Assembly (NCBI RefSeq): GCF_026210795.1
Contig: NC_089451.1
Location: 1,224,001-1,288,000 of the forward strand
Direction of reading: 5' to 3'
From: Rhizophagus irregularis
Lineage: Eukaryota > Glomeromycota > Glomeromycetes > Glomerales > Glomeraceae
Length of the DNA: 64,000 nt
The notes below the pieces were generated by a model. That model worked only from the letters and a program-made list of their open reading frames with translations. It had not been told where the DNA came from and searched no databases. Below are positions 35,329 through 61,200 of this stretch, piece after piece (within the stretch, counting starts at the first letter, position 1; each line of letters starts with the position of its first letter). The translations under genes were made by a program, and so were the position numbers.

Positions 35329-35330
35329 TG

Positions 35331-35625: not shown

Positions 35626-36712
35626 TTGATTTAATCCAACTATGCTCGATAATTTTATCTTTGTCAAAAATTAGTTTCTTTGTCAGCACAGGGTTGATAT
35701 ATTGTTGGTCACATGTTTTAAGTTTAGCGTAGTTTTAAAAAAATTTTTTTTTTTTATTGGCTTTTTTTTATAAACAAATTTTGTAGAGAATTTTATTTTT
35801 AATATAGGCAAAGGCTTAGTTTGATAGAATTTCTTTGGGAATTTTTTTAATAAGATTTTTTTGATAAAAAATTTCGTTAGAAAATTTTTTTTTTGATGAT
35901 AATTTCGTTAAAAATTTTTATTTGATAGAAATTTTATTGGAGAATTTTTTTTTGATAAGATTTTTTTTTTGACATATACTTAACAATTTTTTGTGACAGG
36001 AGAAATTTTTTTTTTTTTGATAGAGAATTAATTGAGAATTTCTTTTTTTTTTTGCAGAAAATTATTTGAAGAATTTTTTTTAATAGGGAAGATTTTTTTT
36101 TTGATAGATAATTTCGTTACTAGAAAATTTTTTTAACAAGTGAGATTTTTTTTTGATAGAGAATTTCGTTAAGAATTTTTTTTTAATAGGAGGGAGTTTT
36201 CCTTGATAAAGAATTCTTTTGGGAATTTTTTTTAATAAGTGAAAGTATTTTTTGACGGAGAATTTTATTAGAGAATTTTTTTTTTTTTTTTTTTGATAGA
36301 AATTTCATCATAGAATTTTTTTTTAATAGGTAAGATTTTTTTTTTTTTTGATAGATCATTTCGTTAATAATTTTTTTAACAGGAGAGATTTTTTTTTTGA
36401 TAGATCATTTCGTTAATAATTTTTTTAACAGGAGATTTTTTTTTTGATAGAAAATTTCGGTAAAGAATTTTTTTTTTAATAGGGAAAATGTATTTTTTGA
36501 TGTTAGAAATTTTTCTTAATCAAGGATATTTTTTTTGATTGAGAATTTCATTAGAGAATTGTTGGTTGAAAAGTTTTTTTATTTTTTTGATGGAGAATTT
36601 TGTTAGAAGTCTCAATATTGAAAATAGTTTTTTTTTTTAATAAGGGTATCGAGAATTTTGGCTTGAAATTTATTTTTTTAATAAAGAATTTCATTAAAGA
36701 TCTTTTTTTATA

Positions 36713-38111
36713 AAATTAAAAAAACACTAAATTACATTAATAAGATTAAGATAAAATTAAAAAAAACTATGATAGAATCCTAAGTAGCATAGTAAATTAA
36801 GCAAATTTTATATACTAGTAAAGCTCCGCATGAGCCGACATAAATTAAAAAGTTAAAAATGTTAACTTTAAGAAAAGTATATAGCAGAAATTTGTTTGCA
36901 GTGTTTCTTCTTTTTATCATTAATTGGCATAAAAACATTTTTGAAAATCTACTATTTTAAATACTTTTAATATATATAAATAAAAATTGGAATTGCTAAA
37001 TGTCGCCTGGGCGATCATCGCCTGGGTTTTTTTTTTCAAATATGTATCTAATTTTTGATCGGTTATTATTAAAAAGATATTTTTTTTAAAATTTTTTTTG
37101 CAAACATATTTATTCAAAATAATCTTATTTAATGAAATCTTATTTACAAATATTAAAATTTAAGTCACATTTACGATTTTAAAGAATAAAATCACCATAT
37201 TTATTTTTATTGAAATGTACAAATAAAAGAAACAATAACAATAAATAAAAAAGATAAGTAAATTACAATGATCAAGGAAAAAAAAATAAAATAACAATGG
37301 AGTAATGGAAAGTAATAGAAGATGAAAGGGAGTAAAAAAGAGTAATGAGAAGTGATAGGAACCAAAAGGAGAAATAGGACATGATGAGAGATGAAAAGGA
37401 GTGATGGAAGACGAAAAGAAGTGATGGGTGACAAAGAGGAGTGATGGGAGATAAAAAAAAAGAAGTGATGAGAAGATTAAGAGGAGTGATGGGAGACAAA
37501 AAGAAGTGATGAAAGACGAAGAGGAGTGATGGGAGACGAAAAGAAGTAATGGGAGACAAAGAGGAGTGATGGGTGATGAAGAGGAGTGATGGGAGACGAA
37601 AAAGAGTGATGGGAGACAAAAAGAAGTGATGAAAGACGAAGAGGAGTGATGGGAGACGAAAAAGAGTGATGGGAGACAAAAAGAAGTGATGAAAGACGAA
37701 GAGGAGTGATGGGAGATAAAAAGGAGTGATGGGAGACGAAAAGAAGTGATGAGAAGATTAAGAGGAGTGATGAGTGACGAAAAGAAGTGATGGGAAGATT
37801 AAGAGGAGTGATGGGAGACGAAAAGGAGTGATGGGAGACGAAGAGAAGTGATGAGAAGATTAAGAGAAGTGATAGGAGACGAAAGGGAGCGATGGGAGAC
37901 GAAAAAGAGTGATGGGAGACGAAAAGGAGTGATAGGAGACGAAGAGGAGTGATGGGAGATGAAAAGAAGCGATGGGAGACAAAAAGGAGTGATGGGAGAC
38001 GAAAAGGAGCGATGGAAGATTAAAAGAAGTGATGGGAGGATGAAGAGGAGTAAAAATTTATTAAAATTGTAAAATTTAATAAAAATTTTCCAATAAATTC
38101 TCAATCAATTT
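36713..38111. repeat. Loop of element 1 with GGAGTGATGGGAGACGAAAA minisatellite
   Basis: From about 37,340 to 38,050 some 35 units of ~20 bp follow the consensus GGAGTGATGGGAGACGAAAA. The minisatellite plus its leader (CACCATATTTATTTTTATTG, ~37,193) recurs at 47,550-48,400 (minus), 57,110-57,500 (plus) and 60,310-60,740 (minus). Long hydrophobic minus-strand frames here are a by-product of the repeat. Confidence 0.75.
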
Positions 38112-38602
38112 TTTATAAAAAAAAAGATCTCTAATGAAATTCTTTATTAAAAAAAAAAAATTTCAAGCCAAAATTCTCGATACCCTTATTAAAAAAAAAC
38201 TATTTTCAATATTGAGACTTCTAACAAAATTCTCCATCAAAAAAATAAAAAAACTTTTCAACCAACAATTCTCTAATGAAATTCTCAATCAAAAAAAATA
38301 TCCCTGATTAAGAAAAATTTCTAACATCAAAAAATACATTTTCCCTATTAAAAAAAAAATTCTTTACCGAAATTTTCTATCAAAAAAAAAAATCTCCTGT
38401 TAAAAAAATTATTAACGAAATGATCTATCAAAAAAAAAAATCTCTCCTGTTAAAAAAATTATTAACGAAATGATCTATCAAAAAAAAAAAAAATCTTACC
38501 TATTAAAAAAAAAATTCTATGATGAAATTTCTATCAAAAAAAAAAAAAAAAAATTCTCTAATAAAATTCTCCGTCAAAAAATACTTTCACTTATTAAAAA
38601 AA

Positions 38603-39845
38603 GGGTTTTGTTTTTTATCGCACCCGCGATATGTCGCAAGGGCATGCGCCTCCTAATTTTATTGGCGAAAAATTTTTTTGTGGCGCGTCAAATTTCAATT
38701 GTAACACGATCTTAAAAAATTTTTTTTTAAAAAATTCTTCGATCTGTTTTGGTTTCTTTGTCCCTACCCTTTAATAAAAACAAACCTTTACATTTCTTTT
38801 CTAATTACGTTTTCATTAAAAACATTGTTTATCATGTTTATATTCGATGGTTGGTTTCTTTTTTCTTCTTTTTTGTCTTGTTTTGAAAACTACACTAAAG
38901 GTTTTTTTTTTCTTTTTTCAGGTCCTTTGCGTTGTGGATTTTGACGTTAATATCATTTGAAAAGAGACTTTTCGTTCTTTAAAGACTCGGTAGGTGAAGT
39001 TTAATACACCGTGTTTAATAACCTTAAAAACACTATTAACGATTTTTTTTTTTACTTTAGATTCTTTCACTTTAGATTCTTTTCACAATGGAAGTTTAAT
39101 GTCAATTTCGTTACTCTTCCTTCTTCTCATTTGGAAAAAATATTGGTAAGTGTCGGTTATATAGACTATGAACTAATTTAAACGGCCTCTTCAAAGTTTT
39201 TGTATATGTATTAACCTCTTGTAAACAATATTAACCAATTTTCTTCTTTTTTTTAGGTTCTTTAATTTGATTTCCTTTCTAAAGAAGACCTCTTACTTTC
39301 CACTTTGGCGAAGTCTCGGTAGGTGTTATTCAGGTTGTTGGTGTACGCGAAGCTTTTAGAAACAACACTAACAGGTGTTTTTTCTTTTTTTTAGGTTTTT
39401 TTTCGTTGTAAAAGCTAAGATTTACCGCCAATTGTGTTTTTTTTCATTTCGGTAGGTGTTATATAGGTTAATGGTGCATGTAATAACCTGTTATAAATGA
39501 TATTAATGAGTTTTTTTCTTTTTTTAGGTTCTTTCACGTTGTTAAAGCCAAACTTTAAAGCTGATCTCATTTTTAAGGTACCTTTGTTACCTTTCACTTC
39601 GGTAGGTGTTATATGGGCTAATGGTGTATGTAATAACCTATTATAAATGATAATATTAATGAGTTTTTTTTTCTTTTTTTAGGTTTTTTTCACGTTGTTA
39701 AAGCCAAACTTTAAAACTGATCCCATTTCTAAGGTACCTTTGTTACCTTTCACTTCGGTAGGTGTTATATGGGCTAATGGTGTATGTACTATATAGTAGT
39801 CTTTAAAATGAATTAATGGTTTTTTTTTCTTTTTTAGATTCATAC
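38603..39845 (+). repeat. Left MULE TIR with tandem intron-like units
   Basis: Read inward, donor-like GTAGGT or GTAAGT sites lie near 38,989, 39,149, 39,321, 39,451, 39,602 and 39,759. Each is followed 70-110 bp later by a pyrimidine tract and AG (for example TTTTTTTCTTTTTTTAGG, near 39,060, 39,257, 39,394, 39,528, 39,682 and 39,837). The exon-like parts share CACGTTGTTAAAGCCAAACT and TTGTTACCTTTCACTTCGG. Units are ~130-160 bp. Confidence 0.65.
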
Positions 39846-40059
39846 GGATGTAATTCACCCGACAATGATGATACAGCAAGTGTAACAAGTACGACTAGTG
39901 AACATGAAAAATGCACATGGAAACTCTGATGTCTTCTATTTCGGAGATAATAAATAGATTAGTGGTGTATGTATATCTTTGGGAAGTATTAGTGAAGATT
40001 TAATTAGGAGGCTTAATAAACTTTATTGTCAAATTTAAAGATACTTTAGCATTTGATAA

Positions 40060-42479
40060 CTATCTTAAAATATTACAATTTCGCTTATTATGACCCATAT
40101 CACCACAATTTCCACATTTATATTGTTTACTATTTACTGAAGTCGTAGCCTTTTCTTTTTCATGGCTTGCTTTAATTCGTTTTGTACCCTTCGGGCGTCC
40201 TTTAGACCTGGTTTGTTTATTAGGATTATTGAGAATAAAAGGAAAATTTTCCTTATCAGATTCATCATCTTTTGTATCTTCTAATTCGATATTTTCATTT
40301 TGTTCTTCATCTTGTTCTTCATCAACATCTTTTAAGTAATTCTCCAAAATATGTATTATACGTATATCCCTTTTACTAACAGCTTTCATAGTAGCTTTAT
40401 GTGATAAGCCAGCAATTTTACCATATAATTGTATGTCTGTAAGTTGTTCATGCCGAGTAATAAATTCTTGTGATGTTTTGCAAATTGCAGTTAAAAATGG
40501 AACATTATGTTGAGGAATAAGAGGTGTAATCTCATTTTCAAATTTGCTAGCAACTAAAAATTGCTCTTTACTAGGATCTTTATCTCTATAATACCATCGT
40601 GAAGGAATAAGTCTTAAATGGAATCTTGCTGCAGGACTACGAAGCATTATTTGAAAATAATGCCTGCAAATAATTCCTCGATTAATAAGAGATAGACAAG
40701 AGCAATAATGAGATCCATTTATTAATAAGATAATAAAATGTTTCTCAACAAGTTTGTTTTCAACATTTACAGCCCACATAGATGAAATTTGATCTTTATT
40801 AATGTTGGAAATCATACATGCTGCAGTTATTTGACGAGCATCAGATACATCTTCCAAATATTGACCTAATAAGAGATCATACTGCAAACACATGTAATAG
40901 CAATGTTAAATCAAGTAAAATACAAACATAATAAGTATACAATTATTATTGTAATATATACTTTATCAAATTCATCAATTACTTCTTGGGTAACTTGTAC
41001 AGCATTATAAAAAACACACTGACGAATTTCATCTCTTTGAAGTTCTAATATGGCAGGAGGCAAATATTCTTCAAGTTTTTGGTTAATAGAAGTAAACATG
41101 AACGCAGCAGTGGAAATCTGAGTAGGCATACAGGGAATAGCAGCTTTCCATAACACAAGTTGATATTTTTTGTTTTCTGCCATTTGTCTTCTCTCTATTA
41201 CATCCCCAAGTTCACATAAAGAAATATTAGAGTTAAAAATATAACTTTTAATCCATGCATTAATGCTTTCTACAGGAGAAGATGCATGGAGTCCTGCAGT
41301 AAATTGGTGACATGTCCAAGGATGAGCCCATGATTCTTTAGTATTATAAAGAGTATTTATCAAATATTGCTGTATTTCAGGATATTGAGTAATTAATTTT
41401 CTCCATTCTGATTCAAAGGAAAGTGTGTTTAGTGTATTACGTACAGCATGAAATTTTGTAAAAAACTCTTGAAATTTATTTCCAATTAGTTTTTGAACCT
41501 TTTTAATCAAATTTTGGCTAATATGAAAAGTGCAATGCATCGGGTATGTGGTAGGAAATGTAGACCTAATCGCAGCATGTACAGCTGGATCTGCATCTGT
41601 CATTATTACTTGTGGATACACATTATTTGTTGCTAAATTGAGTTGTTCAAATGACCATTCATGTGATTCTTTTGTTTCATCAATTAATAATGCTTGTGCA
41701 ACAAGTCTTACATTCCGATTTTCATCAAGAATAATAAATAAACTTAAAGCCATCTCATACCTATTGGTTTTACAAGTTACATCTTGTACCACAATATCTG
41801 AATACCGATACCATAATTCTAACTGAGATGGCGTCATCCAGAATAAATGTGTAAGAGTATTATTATTATCAAATTTGATCGCAACCTTCCACATTGGATT
41901 ATTTTGTGATAATTCAAGTAATTTCGTATACAATTTAGCTGCATCATTACTATCATCTTTATTTTGTGGACGAAAATGTTGAATTGCTTTATACAAATCA
42001 TTATCATAAATTATTTGTCCTGGGAACTTTGCTTCAAGATATTGTCTTTGTGTAGCAGCTCCCATTCTGCATTTAATAGTAAGAAATTCAATCTCCTTCA
42101 TAATTTCAGGAGGTATGTATTTGTTATCTCCAAATTGAATGATATTAGGATTAAGATTATGTGAATGGATATCATGAAGTGTTGTAATATAAACATATTT
42201 AAAAGGATTTTTAGAGGTAGGTTCTGATAAATTAATATGCCAAGCACAGCCTAGACGTTTTGTTGTTGTCTCTTTATTGGATTTTGTAACATAATTACCA
42301 TGATGTTCACATTGTGCAGTACGTCTACGAAAAGTTCCATCAGATTTTTTCTCAACACGACTATATATGATATTAAACCCTTGCTGCTTTGCCCGACTTT
42401 CAATAGTTTCAAATGCTTGCTTCCAAGTGGTGAAAGCCTTTCCTTGATACAAAACTGGTTCAGAGTTTTCTTGTTGCAT
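40060..42479 (-). CDS. MULE transposase, two exons, ~779 residues
   Basis: Exons 40962-42479 and 40060-40881 on minus, joined in phase across an 80-bp GTATAT...TTGCAG intron (text FDK/YDLLLGQ). I choose MQQENSEPVLYQG as start, after two upstream in-frame Mets of weaker context. Domains: a FAR1/WRKY-GCM1-like DNA-binding region (residues ~25-110, with C and H in TAQCEHHG and GCAWHINLS); an MULE DDE core with catalytic Asp in VVQDVTCKTN and VIMTDADPAVHAA and HCTFHISQNL; a SWIM zinc finger (HYCSCLSLINRGIICRHYF, C-x-C ... C-x-H); and a C-terminal CCHC knuckle (CGNCGDMGHNKRNC). An acidic stretch DEEQDEEQNE precedes the knuckle. It would bind the TIRs and cut and paste the element. No stop or frameshift is seen. 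Confidence 0.88.
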
Positions 42480-42984
42480 TGTAGTAAACAAAGGTATAAG
42501 GTGTGTAAAAAGCAAAAAAAAATAAAGGGACGTACAAAAAAATTAGGTAAACAAATAGTAACTTTTGTGTTACAATCACAATTCATATATTTACTAGCCA
42601 ATAAAATTAAGCATTGTCCGCACACTAATATTTTCGTTTATTCAGAACTAAAACCAAGTTAATGACATTTATAAAAGCAATAACATATACTATTAGTCCT
42701 ATCAACACTTTACCGAAAATGAAAAGTCTTTTTTTAACAAGATTTAAAATTAAAATTAAGCTTCTGCAATAAAAGAAGTCTTTTAATATAATATTTACCA
42801 ACTCTCTATCAAAATAAAAAGACAATACCATCAAGAAAGTAAGAAAAGTAAGGATTAATCATTAATTATTAGACCTTTTCTATATAAGAATTTTATGTGT
42901 ATGTAATTAATTACTTTATTAAAAAAATTGTTAAGCATCCTGGTTCCTAATTTATATACTTTAATCATTTCCAAAGGCTGTTTC

Positions 42985-44421
42985 ATACACCATTAGCCCA
43001 TATAACACCTACCGAAGTAAAAAATAACAAAGGTACCAAAAAAATGGAGAAAAAAGGATTTATACCATTTATCCTGGTAGAGCGTTAGAATTTTTCCGCC
43101 AAACAATTTCTACTAGTCCTTTATTACCTGGTATGTTTCGTCCGACGGTATCAGCTTTAAAGTTTGGCTTTAACAACGTGAAAACCCCTAAAAAAAGAAA
43201 AAAAACTCATTAATATTATCATTTATAATAGGTTATTACATACACCATTAGCCCATATAACACCTACCGAAGTGAAAGGTAACAAAGGTACCTTAGAAAT
43301 GGGATCAGTTTTAAAGTTTGGCTTTAACAACGTGAAAAAAACCTAAAAAAAGAAAAAAAAACTCATTAATATTATCATTTATAATAGGTTATTACATACA
43401 CCATTAGCCCATATAACACCTACCGAAGTGAAAGGTAACAAAGGTACCTTAAAAATGAGATCAGCTTTAAAGTTTGGCTTTAACAACGTGAAAGAACCTA
43501 AAAAAAGAAAAAAACTCATTAATATCATTTATAACAGGTTATTACATGCACCATTAACCTATATAACACCTACCGAAATGAAAAAAAACACAATTGGCGG
43601 TAAATCTTAGCTTTTACAACGAAAAAAAACCTAAAAAAAAGAAAAAACACCTGTTAGTGTTGTTTCTAAAAGCTTCGCGTACACCAACAACCTGAATAAC
43701 ACCTACCGAGACTTCGCCAAAGTGGAAAGTAAGAGGTCTTCTTTAGAAAGGAAATCAAATTAAAGAACCTAAAAAAAAGAAGAAAATTGGTTAATATTGT
43801 TTACAAGAGGTTAATACATATACAAAAACTTTGAAGAGGCCGTTTAAATTAGTTCATAGTCTATATAACCGACACTTACCAATATTTTTTCCAAATGAGA
43901 AGAAGGAAGAGTAACGAAATTGACATTAAACTTCCGTTGTGAAAAGAATCTAAAGTGAAAGAATCTAAAGTAAAAAAAAAAATCGTTAATAGTGTTTTTA
44001 AGGTTATTAAACACGGTGTATTAAACTTCACCTACCGAGTCTTTAAAGAACGAAAAGTCTCTTTTCAAATGATATTAACGTCAAAATCCACAACGCAAAG
44101 GACCTGAAAAAAGAAAAAAAAACCTTTAGTGTAGTTTTCAAAACAAGACAAAAAAGAAGAAAAAAGAAACCAACCATCGAATATAAACATGATAAACAAT
44201 GTTTTTAATGAAAACGTAATTAGAAAAGAAATGTAAAGGTTTGTTTTTATTAAAGGGTAGGGACAAAGAAACCAAAACAGATCGAAGAATTTTTTAAAAA
44301 AAAATTTTTTAAGATCGTGTTACAATTGAAATTTGACGCGCCACAAAAAAATTTTTCGCCAATAAAATTAGGAGGCGCATGCCCTTGCGACATATCGCGG
44401 GTGCGATAAAAAACAAAACCC
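42985..44421 (-). repeat. Right MULE TIR; leader side of the transposase with intron-like units
   Basis: Reverse complement of the left TIR plus one extra unit. On minus, reading inward toward the transposase start at 42,479, GTAGGT donors (plus-strand ACCTAC) occur near 44,030, 43,703, 43,570, 43,418, 43,263 and 43,010, with AG acceptors after T-rich tracts (plus-strand CTAAAAAAAGAAAAA) between them. Because the units point the same way as the gene, transcription from this TIR would carry them in the 5' leader. The transposase promoter is likely in this TIR (inference from other MULEs). Confidence 0.6.
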
Positions 44422-46916
44422 TTAAAAAAAATTCCCAAAAGAATTCTTTATCAAGGAAAACTCCCTCCTATTAAAAAAAAATTCTTAACGAAATTCTCTA
44501 TCAAAAAAAAATCTCACTTGTTAAAAAAATTTTCTAGTAACGAAATTATCTATCAAAAAAAAAATCTTCCCTATTAAAAAAATTCTTCAAATAATTTTCT
44601 GCAAAAAAAAAAAGAAATTCTCAATTAATTCTCTATCAAAAAAAAAAAAATTTCTCCTGTCACAAAAAATTGTTAAGTATATGTCAAAAAAAAATCTTAT
44701 CAAAAAAAAATTCTCCAATAAAATTTCTATCAAATAAAAATTTTTAACGAAATTATCATCAAAAAAAAAATTTTTTAACGAAATTATCATCAAAAAAAAA
44801 ATTTTCTAACGAAATTTTTTATCAAAAAAATCTTATTAAAAAAATTCCCAAAGAAATTCTATCAAACTAAGCCTTTGCCTATATTAAAAATAAAATTCTC
44901 TACAAAATTTGTTTATAAAAAAAAGCCAATAAAAAAAAAAAAAATTTTTTAAAACTACGCTAAACTTAAAACATGTGACCAACAATATATCAACCCTGTG
45001 CTGACAAAGAAACTAATTTTTGACAAAGATAAAATTATCGAGCATAGTTGGATTAAATCAAACACAGTTGGACAAAAACATCAAGCACAGACGGACAAAA
45101 ATATCAAGCACAGATGGATAAAAACATAAAGCATGGATGGATAAAAATGTCAAGCATGGTCGGATAAAACCATCAAGCACGTACAGATAAAACCATCAAG
45201 CACGTACAGATAAATATCAAGCATGAACAGATAAAAATATCAAGCACGTGATAGATAAACATCAAGCATGAACAGATAAAAATATCAAGCACATACAGAT
45301 AAATATCAAGCACGGGACAGATGAAAATCAAGCATAAACAGGTAAAATGTCAGACACGGAGTGACATTTTGTCTAGCCATGCTTGATATTTTATCGCGCA
45401 ATGTCTGATAATTTTGTCCAACTCGGCTTGCCATAAAGAAACTAATTTTTGACAAAGATAAAATTATCGAGCATAGTTGGATTAAATCAAACACAGTTGG
45501 ACAAAAACATCAAGCACAGACGGACAAAAATATCAAGCACAGATGGATAAAAACATAAAGCATGGACGGATAAAAATGTCAAGCATGGTCGGATAAAACC
45601 ATCAAGCACGTACAGATAAAACCATCAAGCACATACAGATAAATATCAAGCACGTACAGATAAGCATCAAACACGTACAGATGAAACATCAAGCACGTAC
45701 AGATAAAACATCAAGCATGTACAGATAAACATCAAGCATGAACAGATAAAAATATCAAGCACGTGATAGATAAACATCAAGCATGAACAGATAAAAATAT
45801 CAAGCACATACAGATAAATATCAAGCACGGGACAGATGAAAATCAAGCATAAACAGGTAAAATGTCAGACACGGAGTGACATTTTGTCTAGCCATGCTTG
45901 ATATTTTATCACGCAATGTCTGATAATTTTGTCCAACTCGGCTTGCCATACGACATGTTAATCATGTTCGGCATATTAATTATGTCCGACATGTTAATCA
46001 TGTTAAACATTTGCAACATCGATCAATTTCGGAGTGGCACATGACGATCACATGACAATACGCCCAAAATAAATTCAATTTACATTATGTAAATTGTATA
46101 ATAAATCTGAGACCCAAGGCTACATTTTGATATCTTTTGAAGTTATAAACACTTCATTATCTTTTGAAAAAATCAGCAATAATTATTTATTTCAAATTAA
46201 AAAATATAACAGAAAATTAAATTACATTTATAAAACATTGGTGGATTAGATTTAATTTAAAATACTCAAATATTATTAAGAATAATGCCAAAAAATAAAT
46301 ATCAAAAAATTTGCAGTAAATAAACCTTTATGATAAAATGATGAGAGTTTTATTCATTAAGTTATCACAATTTCGGTATATAGTAAAAAATGCTAATAAA
46401 TGGTTCAAATTACAAAAATGCGTGTAGTTTACTTAAAACAAAACCAATTTTTATCATTTAAAATGCAAAATAAACTTGAATATTGGGGCTACGTTTTGAC
46501 ATTATTTAGGGCTCTAGTACATTTTTACTTTTTGAGAAAATTAACTACAAATGTTGATTTTAAAGAAAAATTTGACATGAAATTCTTAAATTAGAAAATG
46601 GATGCAAATTCACTAGAAATTTCTCAAATTTTATCAAGATAAATGGGAAAATTGCGAATAAAAAAAAATTTTTTTAATATATGCAAAAAAAATATAAATT
46701 TGCTCTAAAATAGTTATTTGAAAGATGGAAACCCATAGATTTTATCAATAATAAATTAATATGGAATTTATTTTAGTAATTTTTCTATAATTAAGCTTAT
46801 AATTATATTTTTCTTATTTAAAAATTTTTTATAAGCTATTTTACATACAATTTGGTGAGATCATCATGGTGTTATGACTGATTTTTTAATTCCAGTTTTT
46901 TTTGCAACACACTGTA

Positions 46917-47241
46917 TATCCAAATTATATAAAAAATATATATATCCAAAAATATATATATATCTGAATTTTATTTTATTAAAAAATATATATCCGAATT
47001 TTATTTTATTAAAAAAAAAATACATCCGAATTTTATTAAAAAAAATATATACTCGAATTTATTAAATTTATTCATTAAAAAACATTATACGAGTTTATTT
47101 ATTAAAACAAAGCATTATACAAATTTAGTAATTATTAAAAAACATTATACAAATTTAATTATTAAAATATACTATATTACATGAATTGATTTATTAAGAA
47201 AAATTATATATCCGAATTTATTAAATTTATTTATTAAAAAA
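46917..47241. repeat. AT-rich tandem repeat, ~30-bp unit
   Basis: Degenerate units such as TATATCCGAATTTTATT and ATTAAAAAACATTATAC follow each other. Similar units reappear at 48,590-48,770, on the other side of the Helitron-like segment's minisatellite part. Confidence 0.55.
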
Positions 47242-49150
47242 CTAGGTGTAACCCGTCGCGCTGCGCCGGGGATAAAACTTCTTAGTATTTTGATAATAAA
47301 TATTTACAATATGGTAAGGTTAGACTAATAAATTTATATAATTTATATAATTTACATATTTAATTTTATTTCATTATTTTTAGGTCCTTTAGTTCTTCCA
47401 GTAAGGTTCAGTTGTTTTTCACTTTACATTTCGTTTCTTACTCATTTTTTTATTTTTTATTTTGTTTCTGTTTCATATTTCGTTTTTCACTAATTTATTT
47501 TATTTTTTTTCAGATATTTTAGTTCTACAATTAATAAAGGTATTTTTTTTATTTGTTTTTTATTTTTTTTATTTTTTTTATTTCGTTTTTATCTTATATT
47601 TCATTTCTTACTAACTTCATTTTTTGTTTACTTTATGGTTTATTTTTTACTTTGTTTCCTCATGATCACTTTTTATTTTTGTCTCTCATCATTTTTACTT
47701 TATACTACTTCTCATTATTTGTCTCCCATTATTTTCTATTACATCTTCATTTTCCATTATTTCATTTTCTCTCCTATTTACTTCCCATCATTTCTTTTGT
47801 CTCTCAATCATTTCTTTTCATTTCCATTACTTCTTTTCGTCTCTCATCACTCCTTTTTATCTTTCATCATTCCTCTTTGTCTTCCATCACTTCTTTTCGT
47901 CACCCATCACTCCTCTTCGTTTCTTATCACTCCTTTTCACTCCTCTTCGTCTACAATCACTCCTTTTCGTCTCCCATAACCCCTCTTCATCTTCCCATCA
48001 CTCCTTTTCGTCTCCCATCACTCTTCTTCATCTTCCCATCACTCCTTTTCGTCTCCCATTACTCTTTTTCATCATCCATCATGTCCTATTTTTCCTTTTT
48101 GTTTCCTATCACTTCTCATTACTCTTTTTTACTCCCTTTCTTCTTCTATTACTTTCCATTACTCCATTGTTATTTCATTTTTTTTATTAGCATCTTTCTC
48201 CTTGATCATTGTCATTTACTTATCTTTTTTATTTATTGTTATTGTTTTTTTTATTGTATCACTTCATTAAAAATAAATACAGTGATTTTTTTCTTTAAAA
48301 TCGAAAATGTGGGACTTAAATTTTAAAAAATTTCATTTAATAAGATTATTTTGAATAAATATGTTTGCAAAAAAAATTTTTTAAAAAATATCTTCGCAAT
48401 AAAATTTTGTTTAACCGATCAAAAATTAGCTAAGTTAAAAAAATCTATACGTTTGCCGATCAAATAAATGGCCTTAACTTTTAAGTTTAAATCAGGCACT
48501 GAATCATGCTACACAATTCAAGATTATTTATACAGACTTAATCTAAACGTTAGAAGATCGACATGTATTTTTTTATTATATTATATAGATATTTATTAGT
48601 AAAAAATTATAATTAAAAATATAATACAAACTTAATTATTAAAAACATTATATGAATTTAATTATTAAAGAAAAATTATATGAATTTTCTTATTAAAATA
48701 TATATTACATGAATTGATTTATAAAAAAAATTATATATTACATGAATTGATTTATTAAAAACATAATATGTGGACATAGAATCGTCCAAATTTGATTTGA
48801 AATATCCTACAATATTAAGTTTTAATCATGTGAAATAAATTTTATTGAATTATTTTATTTTGGTTAGAAAGTAGAAACGAAAAAATTTTTTTTAAAAAAA
48901 TTGTTTTTTATAAATTCTTCTTTTAAGGCCAATTACAAGATTAATTATTAAATCAAAACGTAAAAAACAAATTAAAATATTTTAGATGAAAAAAAATAAA
49001 ATAAATTATTTATTTATTTCAAATTATATCTTATCAATACTTTTGTTTCTGCAAATAAGTGTTAAAATTTATGGTATATATCATACTCTTAGAAAGGGCC
49101 GGTCACCGGCCCTAGGGTATGACTCTAGTTTTATATATAAAAATGAATGA
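47242..49150 (-). mobile_element. Probable Helitron (3' end on minus at 47,242)
   Basis: On minus, the text CCCGGCGCAGCGCGACGGG folds into a hairpin (CCCG-G-CGC / GCG-A-CGGG, loop AGC) and is followed ten bases later by CTAG and then a T: the classical Helitron 3' terminus (hairpin, CTRR, insertion before T). The 5' end is uncertain; near 49,125-49,150 on minus stands TATATAAAACTAGAGTCATA after TC. A perfect palindrome GGGCCGGTCACCGGCCC lies at 49,097-49,113. No RepHel frame is present, so it is non-autonomous. It contains a copy of the GGAGTGATGG minisatellite and intron-like text (TTTTTAGGTCCTTTAG) at 47,380-47,540. Confidence 0.45.
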
Positions 49151-49183: not shown

Positions 49184-49432
49184 GATGAAATGTTTATCCA
49201 GTTACTGCAATTTTGTAATAATTGATCTACATTCGGGTTTGTTTGTCATATATGCAATGATGCAAATGCTTGTACTTGTGATCACCGTTTTTGCACATAA
49301 TGTATTTTGCATAAATATTGTTACCGTATTTATTTATACTAATAAAGGTATTTAATAATAAAAAAAAAAGAAAAAAAGATATCTTTCCAATTAGAGATAA
49401 TTTTGATATAGTAATGGACCAACGTATTGAAG
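49184..49432 (+). other. Possible upstream exon(s) of the kinase gene
   Basis: One frame shows a cysteine-rich stretch CHICNDANACTCDHRFC, and a short open segment further on reads DNFDIVMDQRIE and ends at a GTATAT donor (~49,431). Rhizophagus kinases of this type often begin with a Cys-rich segment before a W-x-S-G-N linker, so these could be first exons; stop codons between them mean more introns would be needed. Weak support. Confidence 0.25.
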
Positions 49433-49589
49433 GTATATCAACAAGCTGAAATATTAATTCATGTTTAATATTTTATATAATTCAACTAATTATATTCTTA
49501 ATTTAAATAACTAGATTGTAAGTAATTATAATTTACAGTAAATACTTTTATATTATCTTTATATCTAACTAATTAATAATTAATAATAC

Positions 49590-52500
49590 TACAGGGTGTA
49601 AGTTATATGATATCTATATTTAGGGCATTGACATATATTAGAGGGTGGGGAGTAAAAAAATATTAGGCTATACATAATATAAACCATGTGAAATGGTTGT
49701 GTTTGGTCATAAAATCTTACCTGGTGGGTGAGTAAACGTTACTATTAAATAATATTAGCTAATATATGTCACTGTCCCTTATATTATTTGTACAATTCAA
49801 TTGAACTAATTTATTTATTTAAAAAATTATTTCATAGATGGTAAGTTATTTATTTAATTCTATAATTACTTATTATTATAATATTTACATATAATTTAAA
49901 CTACCTAATTTCTTTATTTAAAAAATTATTTCATAGATGGTAAGTTATTTATTTAATTCTATTATTACTTATTGTTATAATATTTACATATAATTTAAAC
50001 TATTTAATTTCCTTATTTTTCATAGATGGTAAGTATTTATTTAATTCTATTATTACTTATCATTATAATATTTACATATAATTTAAACTAATTTCTTTAT
50101 TTAAAAATTATTAAATTATATAGGGAGTAAGTTATTTATTTAATTCTATTATTACTTATTGTTATAATATTTACATATAATTTAAACTATTTAATTTCTT
50201 TATTTAAAAATTATAGGGAGTAAGTTATTTATTTAATTCTATTATTACTTATTGTTATAATATTTACATATAATTAAACTACCTAATTTCTTTATTTAAA
50301 AAATTATTAAATAATATAGGGTGTAAGTCATTTATTTAATTCTATTATTACTTATTGTTATAATATTTACATATAATTTAAACTATTTAATTTCTTTATT
50401 TAAAAAATTATTCATAGATGGTAAGTTATTTATTCAATTATATTATTACTTATTGTTATAATTTTTGCATATAGTTTAAACTAACTAATTTCTTTATTTA
50501 AAAAATTATTAAATAATATAGGGTGTAAGTTATTTATTTAATTCTATTATTACTTATGTTGTAATATTTACATATAATTTAAACTATTATTTCTTTATTT
50601 AAAAATTATTTAATAGATGGTAAGTTATTTATTTAATTCTATTGTTATAATATTTACATATAGTTTAAACTATCTAATTTTTTTATTTATTTAATAGATC
50701 GTAAGTCATTATTTATTTATTTAATTCTATTACTACTTATTGTTATAATATTTACATATAATTTAAACTACCTGATTTCTTTATTTAAAAAATTATTAAA
50801 TAATAGGGTGTAAGTTATTTATTTAATTCTATTATTACTTATTGTTATAATATTTACATATATTTTAAACTATCTAATTTCTTTATTTAAAAAATTATTT
50901 CATAGATGGTAAGTTATTTATTTAATTCTATAATTACTTATCATTATAATATTTACATATAATTTAAACTATCTAATTTCTTTATTTAAAAAATTATTAA
51001 ATAATATAGGGTGTAAGTTATTTATTAATTCTATTATTACTTATTGTTATAATTACATATAATTTAAACTATCTAATTTCATTATTTAAAAAATTATTTC
51101 ATAGATGGTAAGTTTATTTATTTAATTCTATTATTACTTATTGTTATAATGTTTATATATAATTTAAACTATCTAATTTCTTTATTTAAAAATTATTGAA
51201 TAATATAGGGTGTAAGTTATTTATTTAATTCTATTATTACTAATTGTTATAATATTTACATATAATTTAAACTATCTAATTTCTTTATTTAAAAAATTAT
51301 TTCATAGATGGTAAGTTATTTATTCAATTCTATTATTACTTATAATATTTACATATAATTTAAACTATTTAATTTCTTTATTTAAAAATTATTTCATAGA
51401 TGGTAAGTTATTCATTTAATTTTATTATTACTTATTGTTATAATATTTACATATAATTTAAACTATCTGATTTCTTTATTTAAAAAATTATTTCATAGAT
51501 GGTAAGTTATTTATTCAATTATATTATTACTTATTGTTATAATATTTACATATAATTTAAACTATCTAATTTCTTTATTTAAAAAATTATTAAATAATAT
51601 AGGGTGTAAGTTATTTATTTAATTCTATTATTACTTATTGTTATAATATTTACATATAATTTAAACTATCTAATATCTCTATTTAAAAAATTATTAAATA
51701 ATATAGGGAGTAAGTTATTATTTAATTCTATTCTTACTTATTGTTATAATATTTACATATAATTTATATAATTTAAACTATCTAATTTCTTTATTTAAAA
51801 AATTATTAAATTATATAGGGTGTAAGTTATTTATTTAATTCTATTATTACTTATTATTATAATATTTACATATAATTTAAACAATCTAATTTCTTTATTT
51901 AAAAAATTGTTTTATAGATGGTAAGTTATTTATTCAATTATTGTTATAATATTTACATATAATTTAAACTATCTAATTTCTTTATTTAAAACATTATTAA
52001 ATAATATAGGGTGTAAGTTATTTATTTAATTCTATTATTACTAATTGTTATAATATTTACATATAATTTAATCTACCTAATTTCTTTATTTAAAAAATTA
52101 TTTCATAGATGGTAAGTTATTTATTTAATTCTATTATTACTTATGTTATAATATTTACATATAATTTATACTATTTATCTATTTAATAGATCGTAAGTCA
52201 TAATTTATTTATTTAATACTATTATTACTTATAATATTTATATATAATTTAAACTAACTAATTTCTTTATTTAAAAAATTATTAAATAATATAGGGAGTA
52301 AGTTATTTATTTAATTCTATTATTACTTATTGTTATAATATTTACATATAATTTAAACTATCTAATTTCTTTATTTAAAAATTTATAAATAATATAGGAT
52401 GTAAGTTATTTATTTAATTCTATTATTACTTATTGTTATAATATTTACATATAATTTAAACTATCTAATTTCTTTATTTAAAAAATTATTTCATAGATGG

Positions 52501-52995
52501 TAAGTTATTTATTTAATTCTATTATTACTTATTGTTATAATATTTACATATAATTTAAACTATCTAATTTCTTTATTTAAAAAATTATTTCATAGATGGT
52601 AAGTTATTTATTTAATTCTATTATTACTTATTGTTATAATATTTACATATAATTTAAACTATCTAATTTCTTTATTTAAAAAATTATTTCATAGATGGTA
52701 AGTTATTTATTTAATTCTATTATTACTTATTGTTATAATATTTACATATAATTTAAACTATCTAATTTCTTTATTTAAAAAATTATTTCATAGTAGATGG
52801 TAAGTTGTTTATTTAATTCTATTATTACTTATTGTTATAATATTTACATATAATTTAAACTATCTAATTTCTTTATTTAAAAAATTATTTATGATCTAGC
52901 TTGTAAGTATTTCTATTGTTATATATATTATATAATATTTATTTGGTAATTTAATTCTTTCATTTAAAAAATATCTGTTACTTTAGTTGGTAAGT
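49590..52995 (+). repeat. ~31-unit tandem array of 96-bp introns with 3-nt spacers
   Basis: The regular unit (best at 52,400-52,880) is 99 bp: GTAAGTTATTTATTTAATTC at the start, then TTGTTATAATATTTACATAT, a branch-site-like CTATCTAAT, and TTATTTCATAG at the end, followed by three bases and the next GTAAGT. The three bases are ATG in about half the units, GGT in about a third, otherwise GGA, ATC or GAT. A variant unit ends AATAATATAG and carries GGT or GGA; the two types partly alternate. Lengths vary from 80 to 105 bp. The last units carry CTT (~52,900) and TTG (~52,998). The array ends ~150 bp before the kinase exon. Splicing is not shown. Confidence 0.85.
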
Positions 52996-53145: not shown

Positions 53146-54669
53146 ATTTGTGAAAAGTGGAAATGCAATTATAGATGATTTTATTCTTAAAAAAAAATTA
53201 AAATGGTTTCCTTATTACAAATTTAAAAATGTTAAATATCTTAAAGAAGGAGGATTTGGTACTATATACAAAGCTATTTGGTTGAAAAATAATGGAGATG
53301 AAGAAGATGAAGAGGATGAAGAAGGTAAAGAAGTAATTCTCAAATGTCCCAAGAATTTAAATGAAAATTTAAATGAATTTTTAAAAGAAGTATGATAATA
53401 TATTATTTTCTATTTTTAATTTAAATTAAAATTTATTTGTATTAATAATAATAATTATTATTTTTTATAGTGGGAATATCATACAAGTGTTTTAACTTCA
53501 AGTGATATTATAGATGTTTATGGATTCACAGAAGATCTAAATACTTCAAAATATATGGTAGTAATGGCGTATGCAAATAAAGGTAATTTAAGACAAAATT
53601 TAACAAGAATAGTCGAAAATAATTGGAATCAAAAATTATATATGTTGTACGAAATTATTTCTGGGCTTAGTAAGATACATGGAAAAAATCTTATTCATTG
53701 TGATTTTCATGATGGTAATATTTTAAATCATAATGATGAGAATAAGGATAAAATTTATATTAGTGATTTAGGATTATGTCAACCTGTAAAATCGTTTTTG
53801 AAAAAGTATGATATTTATGGTGTTATACCATTTATGGCTCCTGAAGTTTTAAGAGGCAAACCTTATACTCCAGCTAGTGATATATATGGGTTTTCTATGA
53901 TTATGTGGGAACTTACATCCGGGGTACCACCATTTAATGATAGAGCACATGATATTCAACTTACTTTAAGTATTTGTAAAGGTGAACGTCCTGAAATCAT
54001 TGAAAATACTCCACAATGTTATGTAAATTTAATGAAAAAATGTTGGAATGAAGATCCATTAAAAAGGCCATCTGCATTAGAGGTGAAAGATATTATTGAC
54101 AATTGGATTTTCTATCCTTATGAAGTCAGTGAAGAATTAAAAAGCAACATTATTGAATTTATAAATGCACCAATTGGGCGTAACAAGCTTGCTACTAAAT
54201 CTCACTCTAAAGCATGTTATACAAGTCGCTTACTTGATTTTACTAGTAAAAAATTGAATGAAGTTCTTGAAAGTGAAAATTTACAAGCATATTGTGCAAG
54301 TCATTCAGATTTGAATGATTGTGTAATTAATGATTCGAGGTCATTAGGTATATACTATAATATATAAAAATTAATCTTGCAAATTATTTATATGAAATTA
54401 ATTAATTCATTTAATTATTAAAACAGATGAGAGTACTAGTAAATTGTTGAATGAAATTCTTGAAAGTGAAGATTCACAAGCTACTAGTGTAAAAGCAAAT
54501 AAAGTGCTAGTAAGTGAAGATATGAGTGATTATATAATTAAGGATTTGGGGTCATTGGGTATGTACTATGATATATAAAAGGAATTAATCTTGCAATTGC
54601 AAATTATTTATATAAAATTAATTTTATTTAATATTTAATTATTTAGATATTAAACCAGATGAAAATTAA
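53146..54669 (+). CDS. TKL-like protein kinase, four or more exons
   Basis: Exons 53146-53389, 53471-54347, 54427-54558 and 54647-54669 (stop TAA 54,667-54,669) join in phase. The first listed exon starts with an AG acceptor and phase 2, so at least one exon lies upstream. Kinase landmarks: glycine loop LKEGGFGTIYKA, an acidic insert GDEEDEEDEEGKE, ATP-lysine in VILKCPK, alpha-C Glu in FLKEVWEYH, catalytic loop HCDFHDGNIL, DLG in place of DFG, MAPEVL, SDIYGFSMIMWELTSG and the CWNEDPLKRPSA end. All catalytic residues are present, so it should be active. The C-terminus holds a duplicated exon (KKLNEVLESENLQ and SKLLNEILESEDSQ). It belongs to the expanded Rhizophagus kinase family, of unknown targets. 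Confidence 0.82.
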
Positions 54670-56722: not shown

Positions 56723-59700
56723 TATGGAAAGCCGCCATGGTCAAAAGTGCGTAGCAAAACATAGCGTGTATACGCTATGTTTTGTAGCGCGTATACGTTA
56801 TATTTCACGGCGGGTTACCCCTGTTCTGTCTGTTTCAGGGGTAACCTGTTGCAAAAAATAGCGTTTAATACGCTATATTTCATAGCGTTATATACGTTAT
56901 ATGTTATGACGGGTACCCGTTATAAGAAACGGCGGGTACCTGTTATAAGGAACGGCGGGTACCCGCTATAAAACGGACGGGTACCCGTTATAAGAAACGG
57001 CAGGTACCCGTTATAAGAAACGGCGGGTACCTGTTATAAGAAACGGCGGGTACCCGTTATAAGAACTGGCAGTCAGCATATTAACTTTTGATAAACATCA
57101 ATAATGATAATTATTTATTTAATGAAATTTTATTTGACAAATATTAAAATTCAAGTCACACATTTACGATTTTAAAGAAAAAAATCACCATATTTATTTT
57201 TATTGAAGTGTACAAATAAAATTAACAATAAAAATAAATAAAAAAGATAAGTAAATTACGAGAAAGATGCTAATAAAAAAATGAAATAACAGTGGAGTAA
57301 TGGAAAGTAATAGAAGATGAAAGGGAGTAAAAAAGAGTAATGAGAAGTGATAGGAAACAAAAAGGAGAAATAGGACATAATGAGAGATGAAAAGGAGTGA
57401 TGGTAGACGAAGAGGAGTGATGGGAGACGAAAAGGAGCGATGGGAGATGAAAGGAAGTGATGGGAAGATGAAGAGAAGTAAAAATTTATTAAAATTGTAA
57501 ATTTAATAAAAAATTTTCCAATAGATTTTCAATCAATTTTTTATAAAAAAAAAAGATCTCTAATGAAATTCTTTATTAAAAAAAATTTTCAAGCCAAAAT
57601 TCTCGATACACTTATTAAAAAAAACTATTTTCAATAAAATTTTCTATTAAGATTTCTAAACAAAGTTCTCCATCAAAAAAATAAAAAAATTTTTCAACAA
57701 ACAATTCTCTAATGAATTCTCAATCAAAAAAAAATATCCCGATTAAAGAAAAATTCAAAGATTCTTACCACCTATTAAAAAAAATTCTCAAAAGAATTTC
57801 TATACCAAAAAAAAAACTCCTCTCCTATTAAAAAAAAAAAATCTTTACCAAAATTCTCTATCAAAAAAAATCTCCCTGTTAAAAAAATTTACACTAACGA
57901 AATTATCTATCAAAAAAAAATTCTATGATGAAATTCCTATCAAAAAAAAAAATATTCTCAGCGAAATCTATTTAAGAAAATTCTTTAATGAAATTCTCTA
58001 TCAAAAACAATCCCCCTATTAAAAAAAAATTCTCTAATAAAATTCTCCGTCAAAAAATACTTTCACCTATTAAAAAAATTCCCAAAAGAAATTCTTTATT
58101 AAGGAAAACTCCTTCAATTAAAAAAAAATTCGTAACAAAATTCTCTATCAAAAAAAATTTCACTTGTTAAAAAATTTTCTAACGAAATTATCTATCAAAA
58201 AAAAAATCTTCTCTATTAAAAAAATTCTTCAAATAATTTTCTACAAAAAAAAAAAAATCTCAAATAATTCTCTATCAAAAAAATCTCTCCTGTTAAAAAA
58301 AATTGCTCCAACAAATTAAGTATACGTCAAAAAAAAAAAAATCTTATTAAAAAAAATTCTCCAATGAAATTTCTATCAAATAAAAGTTTTTAACGAAATT
58401 ATCCATCAAAAAAAAAAACTCAGAAATGTCCCTATCAATGAAAAAAATTTTCTAACGAAATTTTTTATCAAAAAAAATCTTCTTATTAAAAAAATTCCCA
58501 ATGAAATTCTATCAAACAAAGCCTTTGCCTATATTAAAAATAAAAATTCTCTACAAAATTTGTTTATAAAAAAAAGCCAAGAAAAAAAAAAAAATTTTTT
58601 TAAAAAAAAAAAAATTAAATGGCGGGTACCCGATATGTGAAATAGCGTTTACCCGCTATGTGAAGTGGCGGGTACCCGATATGTGAAGCGGCGGGTACCC
58701 GATATGTGAAGCGGCGGGTACCTGATATGTGAAGCGGCGGGTACCTGATATGTGAAGCGGCGGGTATTCAATCCCTTGAAAATTTTAAAATTTGGTCCAA
58801 AATAAATTAATAAACCGTTATAATATAAAGCGTATACACGTTAAATTATGTATGGCAAGCGGTAGTGGTCAAAAGTGCGTAGCAAAACATAGCGTGTACA
58901 CGCTACAAAACATAGCGTATACACGTTATCTTTTACGGCGGGTTACCCCTGTTCTGTTGGATTAACCTGTCAATTTCAGGGGTAACCCGCCATAAAAAAC
59001 AGCGTGTATACGCTACATAATTTAACGTGTATACGCTTTATATTATAACGGTTTATTAATTTATTTTGGACCAAATTTTAAAATTTTCAAGGGATTGAAT
59101 ACCCGCCGCTTCACATATCAGGTACCCGCCGCTTCACAAATCGGGTACCTGCCGCTTCACATAGCGGGTAAACGCTATTTCACATATCAGGTACCCGCCA
59201 TTTAATTTTTTTTTTAAAAAAAATTTTTTTTTTTCTTGGCTTTTTTTTATAAACAAATTTTGTAGAGAATTTTTATTTTTAATATAGGCAAAGGCTTTGT
59301 TTGATAGAATTTCATTGGGAATTTTTTTAATAAGAAGATTTTTTTTGATAAAAAATTTCGTTAGAAAATTTTTTTTCATTGATAGGGACATTTCTGAGTT
59401 TTTTTTTTTGATGGATAATTTCGTTAAAAACTTTTATTTGATAGAAATTTCATTGGAGAATTTTTTTTAATAAGATTTTTTTTTTTTTGACGTATACTTA
59501 ATTTGTTGAAGCAATTTTTTTTAACAGGAGAGATTTTTTTTGATAGAGAATTATTTGAGATTTTTTTTTTTTTTTGTAGAAACTTATTTGAAGAATTTTT
59601 TTAATAGAGAAGTTTTTTTTTTGATAGATAATTTCGTTAGAAAATTTTTTTAACAAGTGAAATTTTTTTTGATAGAGAATTTTGTTACGAATTTTTTTTT

Positions 59701-61200
59701 AATTGAAGGAGTTTTCCTTAATAAAGAATTTCTTTTGGGAATTTTTTTAATAGGTGAAAGTATTTTTTGACGGAGAATTTTATTAGAGAATTTTTTTTTA
59801 ATAGGGGGATTGTTTTTGATAGAGAATTTCATTAAAGAATTTTCTAAATAGATTTCGCTGAGAATATTTTTTTTTGATAGAAATTTCATCATAGAATTTT
59901 TTTTTGATAGATAATTTCGTTAGTGTAAATTTTTTTAACAGGGAGATTTTTTTTGATAGAGAATTTCGGTAAAGATTTTTTTTTTTAATAGGAGAGGAGT
60001 TTTTTTTTGGTATAGAAATTCTTTTGAGAATTTTTTTTAATAGGTGGTAAGAATCTTTGAATTTTTCTTTAATCGGGATATTTTTTTTGATTGAGAATTC
60101 ATTAGAGAATTGTTTGTTGAAAAATTTTTTTATTTTTTTGATGGAGAATTTTGTTTAGAAATCTTAATAGAAAATTTTATTGAAAATAGTTTTTTTTAAT
60201 AAGTGTATCGAGAATTTTGGCTTGAAAATTTTTTTTAATAAAGAATTTCATTAGAGATCTTTTTTTTTATAAAAAATTGATTGAAAATTTATTGGAAAAT
60301 TTTTTATTAAAAATTTACAATTTTAATAAATTTTTACTTCTCTTCATCTTCCCATCACTTCCTTTCATCTCCCATCGCTCCTTTTCGTCTCCCATCACTC
60401 CTCTTCGTCTACCATCACTCCTTTTCATCTCTCATTATGTCCTATTTCTCCTTTTTGTTTCCTATCACTTCTCATTACTCTTTTTTACTCCCTTTCATCT
60501 TCTATTACTTTCCATTACTCCACTGTTATTTCATTTTTTTATTAGCATCTTTCTCCTTGATCATTGTAATTTACTTATCTTTTTTATTTATTGTTATTGT
60601 TAATTTTATTTGTACACTTCAATAAAAATAAATATGGTGATTTTTTTCTTTAAAATCGTAAATGTGTGACTTAAATTTTAATATTTGTCAAATAAAATTT
60701 CATTAAATAAATAATTATCATTATTGATGTTTATCAGAAGTTAATATGCTGACTGCCAGTTCTTATAACGGGTACCCGCCGTTTCTTATAACAGGTACCC
60801 GCCGTTTCTTATAGCGGGTACCTGCCGTTTCTTATAACGGGTACCCGCCATTTCTTATAGCGGGTACCCGCCGTTTCTTATAACAGGTACCCGCCGTTTC
60901 TTATAACGGGTACCCGTCATAACATATAACGTATATAACGCTATGAAATATAACGTATACGCGCTACAACACATAGCGTATACACGCTATGTTTTGCTAC
61001 GCACTTTTGACCATGGCGGCTTTCCATAAATTATGTAGCGTATACACGCTGTTTTTTATGGCGGGTTACCCCTGAAATTGACAGGTTAATCCAACAGAAC
61101 AGGGGTAACCCGCCGTAAAAGATAACGTGTATACGCTATGTTTTGTAGCGTGTACACGCTATGTTTTGCTACGCACTTTTGACCACTACCGCTTGCCATA
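56723..61200. mobile_element. Foldback element 2: near-perfect 4.3-kb palindrome, 8-bp target duplication
   Basis: Ends TATGGAAAGCCGCCATGG (56,723) and CCACTACCGCTTGCCATA (to 61,200) are flanked by GATTTATC (56,715-56,722; 61,201-61,208). The arms, ~56,723-58,850 and ~59,013-61,024, mirror each other around ~58,930. From outside in: GTCAAAAGTGCGTAGCAAAA, a minisatellite of GGCGGGTACCCGTTATAAG units, the GGAGTGATGG minisatellite, ~1 kb of A/T-rich units homologous to element 1, and GGCGGGTACCCGATATGTG units. The loop (58,851-59,012) is itself a terminal unit (TATGGCAAGCGGTAGTGG), and an inverted copy of it is appended at the right end (61,025-61,200). No coding capacity. Confidence 0.8.
56880..57066. 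repeat. GGCGGGTACCCGTTATAAGAA minisatellite, element 2 arms
   Basis: About seven units of 21-23 bp on the left; the reverse-complement array lies at 60,757-60,920. Related units GGCGGGTACCCGATATGTGA occupy 58,620-58,765 and, reversed, 59,098-59,205. Confidence 0.85.

Follow-up and report, generated by a model that had tools for sequence, protein, structure and literature searches.

Schistosome micro-exon genes (MEGs) are described, in the passages of two papers, as containing 10–20 exons per gene that span 3–81 bp or 6–81 bp, with 15 bp the commonest length, and with introns of 0.1–5 kb; their products are secreted, and the variety of these products is ascribed to alternative splicing (PMC4350168, PMC10526429). 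Excerpts on the bicycle genes of aphids give a mean of about 17 exons, which begin at codon position 2 in nearly every case; these genes form a rapidly evolving family of putative plant-directed effectors, with a CYC motif (PMC9168663); such a start is termed ‘phase 2’ in that source and phase 1 here, by the number of bases carried over. Exons of one or three nucleotides appear, in passages on the respective genes, in Arabidopsis APC11, with a single-nucleotide exon for which sequential removal of the flanking introns is favoured (PMC4674806), in Fusarium CYP621A, also with a single-nucleotide exon (PMC12940212), and in Drosophila homothorax, with a 3-bp exon (PMC7392893). Here we describe a kinase-family gene of Rhizophagus irregularis, a root-associated soil fungus, whose 5' part appears to consist of a long row of one-codon exons. 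A search of the open-access full-text literature, with subscription papers and preprint servers outside its scope, returned neither such arrays in Rhizophagus nor such a design.

Results

Anatomy of the predicted gene

The stretch of DNA analysed (the window, 64 kb) contains 43 GTAAGT hexamers, of which 35 lie three nucleotides behind an AG, all of them within 49515–52995. Gaps of 0, 2 or 4 nucleotides between AG and GTAAGT are absent from the window, and a gap of one nucleotide occurs once, at 53073, in the last unit. The initial annotation had described some 31 intron-like units running from GTAAGT to AG with a 3-base gap between them; this agrees with the 31.3 copies of period 99 that Tandem Repeats Finder assigns to the homogeneous portion of the array (49806–52890, plus strand, as are all gene features below), and the 3-base gap holds at 35 of 35 sites. 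Diverged units extend the array at both ends (ATT and GGT on the 5' side, CTT and TTG on the 3' side) and keep the AG-3-GTAAGT pattern. Micro-exon spacing is 80–112 bases, close to the unit length of 80–105 bp given originally, with a single exception of 243 bases between 49598 and 49841. The intron concerned (49598–49837) carries an unrelated insertion that makes it about 150 bases longer than its counterparts, as judged by comparing spacings with other loci. Foreign-looking insertions were seen by eye inside array introns of loci L025, L028 and L030 as well as in this window intron, in each case off the splice sites, and the array of L031 has one long spacing of 627 bases.

The predicted gene begins with exon 1 (ATGGACCAACGTATTGAAG, 49414–49432, placed by sequence), which encodes MDQRIE plus one base and ends in phase 1 at a GTATAT donor; intron 1 (49433–49514, also placed by sequence) runs from GTATAT to AACTAG. 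It is followed by 35 micro-exons of three nucleotides (49515–52989), each with a GTAAGT...AG intron behind it. These start at 49515 (ATT), 49595 (GGT), 49838 (ATG), 49937 (ATG), 50026 (ATG), 50124 (GGA), 50217 (GGA), 50320 (GGT), 50418 (ATG), 50522 (GGT), 50617 (ATG), 50698 (ATC), 50807 (GGT), 50906 (ATG), 51010 (GGT), 51105 (ATG), 51209 (GGT), 51308 (ATG), 51400 (ATG), 51499 (ATG), 51603 (GGT), 51707 (GGA), 51819 (GGT), 51918 (ATG), 52010 (GGT), 52109 (ATG), 52190 (ATC), 52295 (GGA), 52398 (GAT), 52497 (ATG), 52596 (ATG), 52695 (ATG), 52797 (ATG), 52900 (CTT) and 52987 (TTG). Directly after the intron of the TTG unit stands a candidate exon of one nucleotide, A, at 53073 (TTTTAG-A-GTAAGTAA), and the array then runs into the kinase exon at 53146, as had been proposed.

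The first kinase exon (53146–53389) was delimited by its open frame and reads A-TTT GTG AAA AGT GGA... (FVKSGNAIIDDF...). It is followed by a second kinase exon (53471–54347) and by two exons placed by the joined translation, a third 3' exon (54427–54558) and the last coding exon, which ends in the stop TAA (54647–54669). The translation of the joined 3' exons ends with the final 170 residues of the annotated window protein (P0102, OCT59_015251). The first two kinase exons, when joined, match Pfam PF07714 (E = 6.1e-40, 137.6 bits, cut-off 23.1) and PF00069 (E = 8.2e-34, 117.6 bits, cut-off 31.7), both above the curated cut-offs, which identifies the window gene as a protein kinase gene. In this gene 37 introns would separate exon 1 from the kinase exon, for about 36 residues, and the sequence predicts a transcript with the junctions GAAG-ATTGGTATGATG...CTTTTG-A-ATTTGTG. 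Two conserved sequences, GTTTGTTTGTCATATATGCAATGATGCAA and TGCACATAATGTATTTTGCATAAATATT, lie upstream of exon 1 (49232–49320); at least one of them recurs in 19 of 21 stretches, and they are a possible shared promoter element.

Elsewhere in the window, tandem repeat families at 34998–48081 recur in reverse complement to either side of ~41.5 kb, as do TTTATCTGTACGTGCTTGAT at 35.0 kb with ATCAAGCACAGACGGATAAAAAC at 45.1–45.8 kb and units of 156 bases at 39.4 kb and 43.2 kb, so that the region looks like a large inverted repeat. A second mirrored set at 56908–60916, comprising CGGGTACCCGTTATAAGAAACGG and its complement and the 20-base ATGGGAGATGAAAAGGAGTG and its complement, is perhaps another large inverted element. 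A tandem repeat with a unit of 108 bases occupies 25597–26326 and may be coding on the minus strand. Its 36-residue period presumably recalls Sel1 repeats.

Related arrays across the genome

The genome searched comprises 146.7 Mb in 32 contigs, of which contig C23 carries the window at 1,224,001–1,288,000. A 216-base piece of the array used as query gave 522 matches, and the 3' block (TTG unit, one-nucleotide exon and start of the kinase exon) was found at an identity of at least 87% at a minimum of 40 loci, a lower bound in that 40 of 171 first-look candidates were scored. The double micro-exon pattern GTAAGT-N65-95-AG-NNN-GTAAGT-N65-95-AG-NNN-GTAAGT occurs 1119 + 1183 = 2302 times, against 24 (24 + 0) for the reversed control, with overlapping matches included in these counts; genome-wide, specificity for three nucleotides is judged from this control and from the fetched loci. 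Two matches to the pattern at G000:C1:1726858-1727610 have introns unlike those of the array family (GTAAGTGTATCATTTTTAAAATC...) and are perhaps 3-nt exons of another gene.

We read 29 stretches, namely the window, 20 fetched loci, 6 hold-out loci and two members of a diverged intron subfamily (L039 and L040); the overlap of L016 and L017 suggests that these two belong to a single gene, which would make 28 genes in all. An array is present in all 29, with a total of 915 micro-exons that includes units with non-GTAAGT donors filled into long spacings by script. The motif of the one-nucleotide exon, TTTTAG-N-GTAAG, was found in 20 of the 21 stretches of the first set and in 6 of 6 hold-out stretches. 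It is absent from L016, the 3' part of which lies in L017; the exon base is T in L019 and L023, and both members of the diverged subfamily have a similar site, TTTAG-A-GTAAGT. No kinase frame was assigned in L020, L021, L022, L026, L028, L030 and L032, where the acceptor motif did not match or the reading ran into a stop, and the kinase start of L033 was missed by the motif, yet the 3' block matches inside that stretch.

Introns and splice sites

Of the 852 introns of the 29 stretches, 726 contain a CTAAY motif, at a median of 33 bases before the intron end, in agreement with the branch-like CTAAT first noticed about 30 bases from the end. In order that splice sites should not select themselves, units were defined by matches to the intron interior. 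AG-3-GTAAGT is kept at 551 of the 584 junctions so defined in 21 stretches (two of the 584 are counted twice through the L016/L017 overlap), and AG-3-GT or AG-3-GC, tallied by reading the non-canonical rows, at 572 (~98%). The 33 junctions that lack AG-3-GTAAGT comprise 19 with AG-3 and a different donor and 14 of other kinds, sorted by the same reading: seven with gaps of 0, 2 or 4, five that have lost one or both sites and two with a gap of 3 and a weak or GC donor. The seven altered gaps are in L022, L029 and L032 and would shift the frame if used. The TTG unit before the one-nucleotide exon departs from the pattern in three loci: its donor is weak in L030 and GC in L023, and in L019 AG abuts GTAAGT. 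The terminal stop in the predicted peptide of L030 stems from this unit having been left unparsed. Apparent internal gaps of one nucleotide proved to be AGN triplets after TATAG or TTTAG, that is, true 3-nt exons.

Splice sites are modestly less mutated than other positions, as would be expected of working sites: 94.3% of junctions retain all eight splice bases and their spacing, compared with a median of 83.9% for interior eight-base windows, a few end windows of the intron model reaching 96%. Because the introns are homogenised, splice-site conservation by itself is a modest argument. Mean pairwise intron identity is 0.82 within the window array; it is 0.71–0.75 inside each of L039 and L040, and ~0.70 when the window is compared with these two loci. 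L040 still has 27 consecutive units in an unbroken chain. A plain satellite was rejected on the near-constant gap together with the codon-level signals described below. Judged by sequence signature, the units have the flanking splice sites and the coding content expected of micro-exons in the general sense (constitutive and in frame).

Reading phase of the micro-exons

Exon 1 was located in 26 of the 29 stretches, the exceptions being L017 (the 5' part of which lies in L016), L035 and L039. Its first GGTA donor is in phase 1 in 26 of 26 cases, with no phase forced, and in 25 of the 26 the same holds for all GGTA donors within 45 nt. Exon 1 types encoding MDQRIE and its relatives measure 19 nt, and those encoding MGQCIGK, MALNNDK, MAHSNNK and relatives measure 22 or 16 nt; an acidic exon caught in seven stretches (114–129 nt) is a multiple of three in 7/7. 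At the 3' end, the one-nucleotide exon and the base that opens the kinase exon fill a codon, such that TTG-A-A completes GAA before TTT. Exon 1 and the kinase exon thus both demand phase 1, and the micro-exons therefore start at codon position 2, each phase-1 codon consisting of the last base of one micro-exon and the first two bases of the next. The suggestion that each unit adds one codon in frame is upheld by the sequence; the codons proposed (Met, Gly, Ile or Asp) belong to the wrong phase, since the flanking exons demand phase 1. Phase 2 was rejected, with 139 stops. Phase 0 gives one stop in 915 triplets, and stops have little test power in this phase. The micro-exons of L031 include a TGA, which is a stop in phase 0 and is harmless only in phase 1.

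Avoidance of stops between neighbours

For a phase-1 stop to arise, a T-ending micro-exon must precede one that starts with AA, AG or GA, and we examined such junctions between neighbours 50–130 bases apart. In genomic order there is one stop in 852 junctions, compared with 14.8 ± 3.0 when micro-exons are shuffled within runs (20,000 shuffles, minimum 3); with strict sites only, 654 micro-exons in 21 stretches give no phase-1 stop against a shuffled mean of 10.0. Micro-exons starting with AA, AG or GA are preceded by a T-ending one in 1 of 53 cases, compared with 250 of 852 overall (Fisher P = 1.3e-7), and in 0 of 34 cases in the first set, where the background is 28.6%. The shuffles treat copies as independent, contrary to tandem duplication, which a control with other lags answers in part. 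These lag counts are circular and omit runs of fewer than eight micro-exons (first set and hold-out) or five (diverged subfamily). In the first set, stops number 0 of 628 at lag 1 and 5–14 of 661 at all 19 other lags; the hold-out loci, weak when taken by themselves, give 1 of 123 against 1–6 of 132, and the diverged subfamily 0 of 61 against 2–6 of 64. Joins that skip one micro-exon (lag 2) create stops in 6 of 661, 5 of 132 and 2 of 64 cases, 13 of 857 in all, inside the range of the other lags. The restriction of stop avoidance to lag 1 suggests that neighbouring micro-exons are probably joined in order and translated, with no routine skipping. The lone phase-1 stop is an in-frame TAG in L034 with canonical sites; this locus and the three with altered gaps look like broken or decaying members, or sites of unit skipping.

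Variability of codons and predicted peptides

Across 4584 between-locus pairs of micro-exons with identical 70-base flanks, bases 1, 2 and 3 differ in 48.8, 24.8 and 58.6% of pairs, and C/(C+T) at these positions is 0.359, 0.014 and 0.344. Phase 1 makes base 2 the wobble base, so that a T/C change there is always silent, and the 1.4% of base 2 is about the level of intron substitution (2.15%). The silent base thus appears to behave like the introns in phase 1 only, and the contrast with the other two bases indicates that the encoded residues are under strong diversification. In an alignment of 590 units, picked by their splice sites and hence biased at the site columns, the top base reaches 0.40, 0.59 and 0.35 in the exon columns and exceeds 0.93 in most intron columns. 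A single flank type carries 18 codons among 119 copies in 17 loci; certain others are invariant (ATG 25/25, ATG 11/11, TTG 12/12), so not every cassette is variable. The third codon base is T or G in 823 of 852 phase-1 codons.

The phase-1 peptide predicted for the window is DWYDDGRRYGYDRYGYGYDDGWRYGYDRRYDDDAF. Predicted peptides range from 9 (L037) to 56 (L030) residues per stretch, with DW or VW close to the start in 26 of 29 stretches, and consist of D (14.9%), R (10.8%), W and Y (9.2% each) and G (8.2%) among others, with 0.3% cysteine. Interior 5-mers are common to 4 of 406 stretch pairs. The repeated blocks YDHPAYDHP in L021 and WNRNRNDDGDG in L030 point to growth by duplication of several units at a time.

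Public protein models

Three protein searches returned 1249 (best 120 listed), 7 and 79 matches, including searches with the predicted spliced product, which was not found among the matches listed. The window kinase matches R. irregularis proteins; P0102 is 100% identical over the best local alignment (29% of the query) and its start omits the array. Among proteins P0001–P0202, inspected at the N-terminus or in the stretch before the kinase, none has a whole phase-1 array peptide joined to the kinase start. Many omit the array, and six (P0002, P0005, P0009, P0045, P0073 and P0074) read like phase-0 micro-exons; P0005 is from R. diaphanus, and the kinase starts of P0009 and P0073 read like those of L029 and L027, respectively. 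P0201 begins MDQRIEAFD, which, going by protein sequence alone, is what exon 1 followed by CTT and TTG would give in phase 1; the R. diaphanus model P0117 reads ...EYKDEWWNRMVEF. We take these models as a sign that the arrays probably occur in other assemblies too, and do not count them as RNA evidence. P0123 (R. irregularis, DUF8211) has the acidic exon and a segment reading ...STKESKDWSSTSQ..., with DW at the expected place, and then continues into an unrelated protein.

Discussion

We consider it likely that the array forms the 5' portion of a kinase-family gene and encodes a peptide at one residue per exon, with all exons included in order, as a recognition segment diversified by way of its introns. 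The sequence contributes to this reading the anatomy of the locus, its phase, the neighbour-specific avoidance of stops, the hypervariability of residues and the block duplications; from these we infer splicing itself, stepwise removal of introns, a mechanism of diversification and a role in recognition. Every micro-exon would be 3 nt long, start at the second codon position and be included in genomic order, and the final one-nucleotide exon would set the frame of the kinase exon. The ~95-nt introns would probably be removed stepwise, in a recursive-like manner, since an exon of 3 nt offers no room for two splice complexes at the same time. The same introns would provide long, uniform homology between one-codon cassettes, such that unequal exchange or conversion within them could add, lose or move residues without loss of frame, with selection keeping the residues of the array diverse. 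The resulting peptide is likely to be a variable binding segment ahead of an intracellular kinase. More tentatively, the family might constitute a germline repertoire, an NNK-like library of one-codon cassettes with dedicated diversification (targeted change of exon triplets, intron-driven exchange of cassettes, or both) that yields a kinase-specific recognition peptide for use analogous to the hypervariable loops of antibodies; this extension, drawn by analogy, is possible but doubtful.

Several other explanations account for part of these observations. Micro-exons that are freely included or skipped would give kinase isoforms of variable length, as the initial annotation had envisaged; all units are symmetric, which means that skipping keeps the frame, and gap-altered and dead units exist. 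Stops are nevertheless avoided between immediate neighbours only, lag 2 behaving like the other lags, which makes a run of variable length by optional inclusion unlikely, although some skipping may occur. The omission of the array from P0102, and of any whole phase-1 array from the proteins examined, would also fit one long intron or a decoy satellite, in which the sites are unused or serve as recursive-splicing waypoints that leave no residue. We regard this as quite unlikely, since waypoints need no 3-nt exon and unused sequence leaves unexplained the avoidance of phase-1 stops, the ~98% of 3-nt gaps, the hypervariable codons and the wobble pattern.

A phase-0 reading, in which a Gly/Ile/Leu/Met tract is joined to the kinase via a 5-nt exon, AGTAA, draws on the six protein models that read ...LSKFGKSGN or similar and on the near-absence of stops in phase 0. 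It is very unlikely in view of the phase-1 end of exon 1 wherever this exon was located; moreover, phase 0 offers no reason for the avoidance of stops at lag 1, and its silent base 3 has the C/(C+T) of 0.344 given above, far from the intron substitution level. That introns are nearly alike and exons diverse could likewise reflect invasion of a pre-existing exon by an intron-generating element that entered behind each of its codons. Random insertion would not yield the near-universal 3-nt spacing, however, and blocks were duplicated together with their codons, which implies that growth includes tandem duplication; we hold such an invasion to be extremely improbable.

If the preferred reading of an ordered, one-residue-per-exon array is correct, the introns are no interruptions; they do work as spacers in a system that generates diversity residue by residue. 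The array would supply a variable part, and the fungus could shuffle single amino acids. The splicing of 37 introns for about 36 residues would also test the limits of intron definition and of stepwise splicing. The public gene models examined omit the array exons or read them differently.

As far as the passages on schistosome MEGs go, the arrays resemble these genes in having many tiny symmetric exons, variable proteins and fast-evolving family members, and differ in their one-codon exons, 9–56 in a row, their repeated ~95-nt introns, the kinase that follows and the apparent disfavour of skipping. MEG coding sequence consists mostly of short symmetric exons, whereas micro-exons supply about 35 of the 421 residues of the predicted window protein; the predicted starts MDQRIE and MGQCIGK are, by eye, unlike signal peptides. 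To our knowledge, bicycle genes lack a kinase. Going by excerpts on them, they share with the arrays many micro-exons, the start at codon position 2 and fast change, and those excerpts make no mention of one-codon exons in tandem repeats (PMC9168663). Stepwise removal of introns is argued here as it is in the passage on a single-nucleotide exon (PMC4674806). In the passages on APC11, CYP621A and homothorax each gene has one exon of one or three nucleotides, compared with 9–56 in a row here. The ratchet points of recursive splicing leave 0 nt or a skipped exon, whereas each step in these arrays would retain 3 nt. In the parts of the literature on recursive splicing drawn on here, the likeness lies in a donor right behind an acceptor and in introns that leave in steps (PMC6224609, PMC5126111). 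Judged by the passages on MEGs and bicycle genes, rows of one-codon exons combined with repeated introns and a kinase set the Rhizophagus arrays apart from both.
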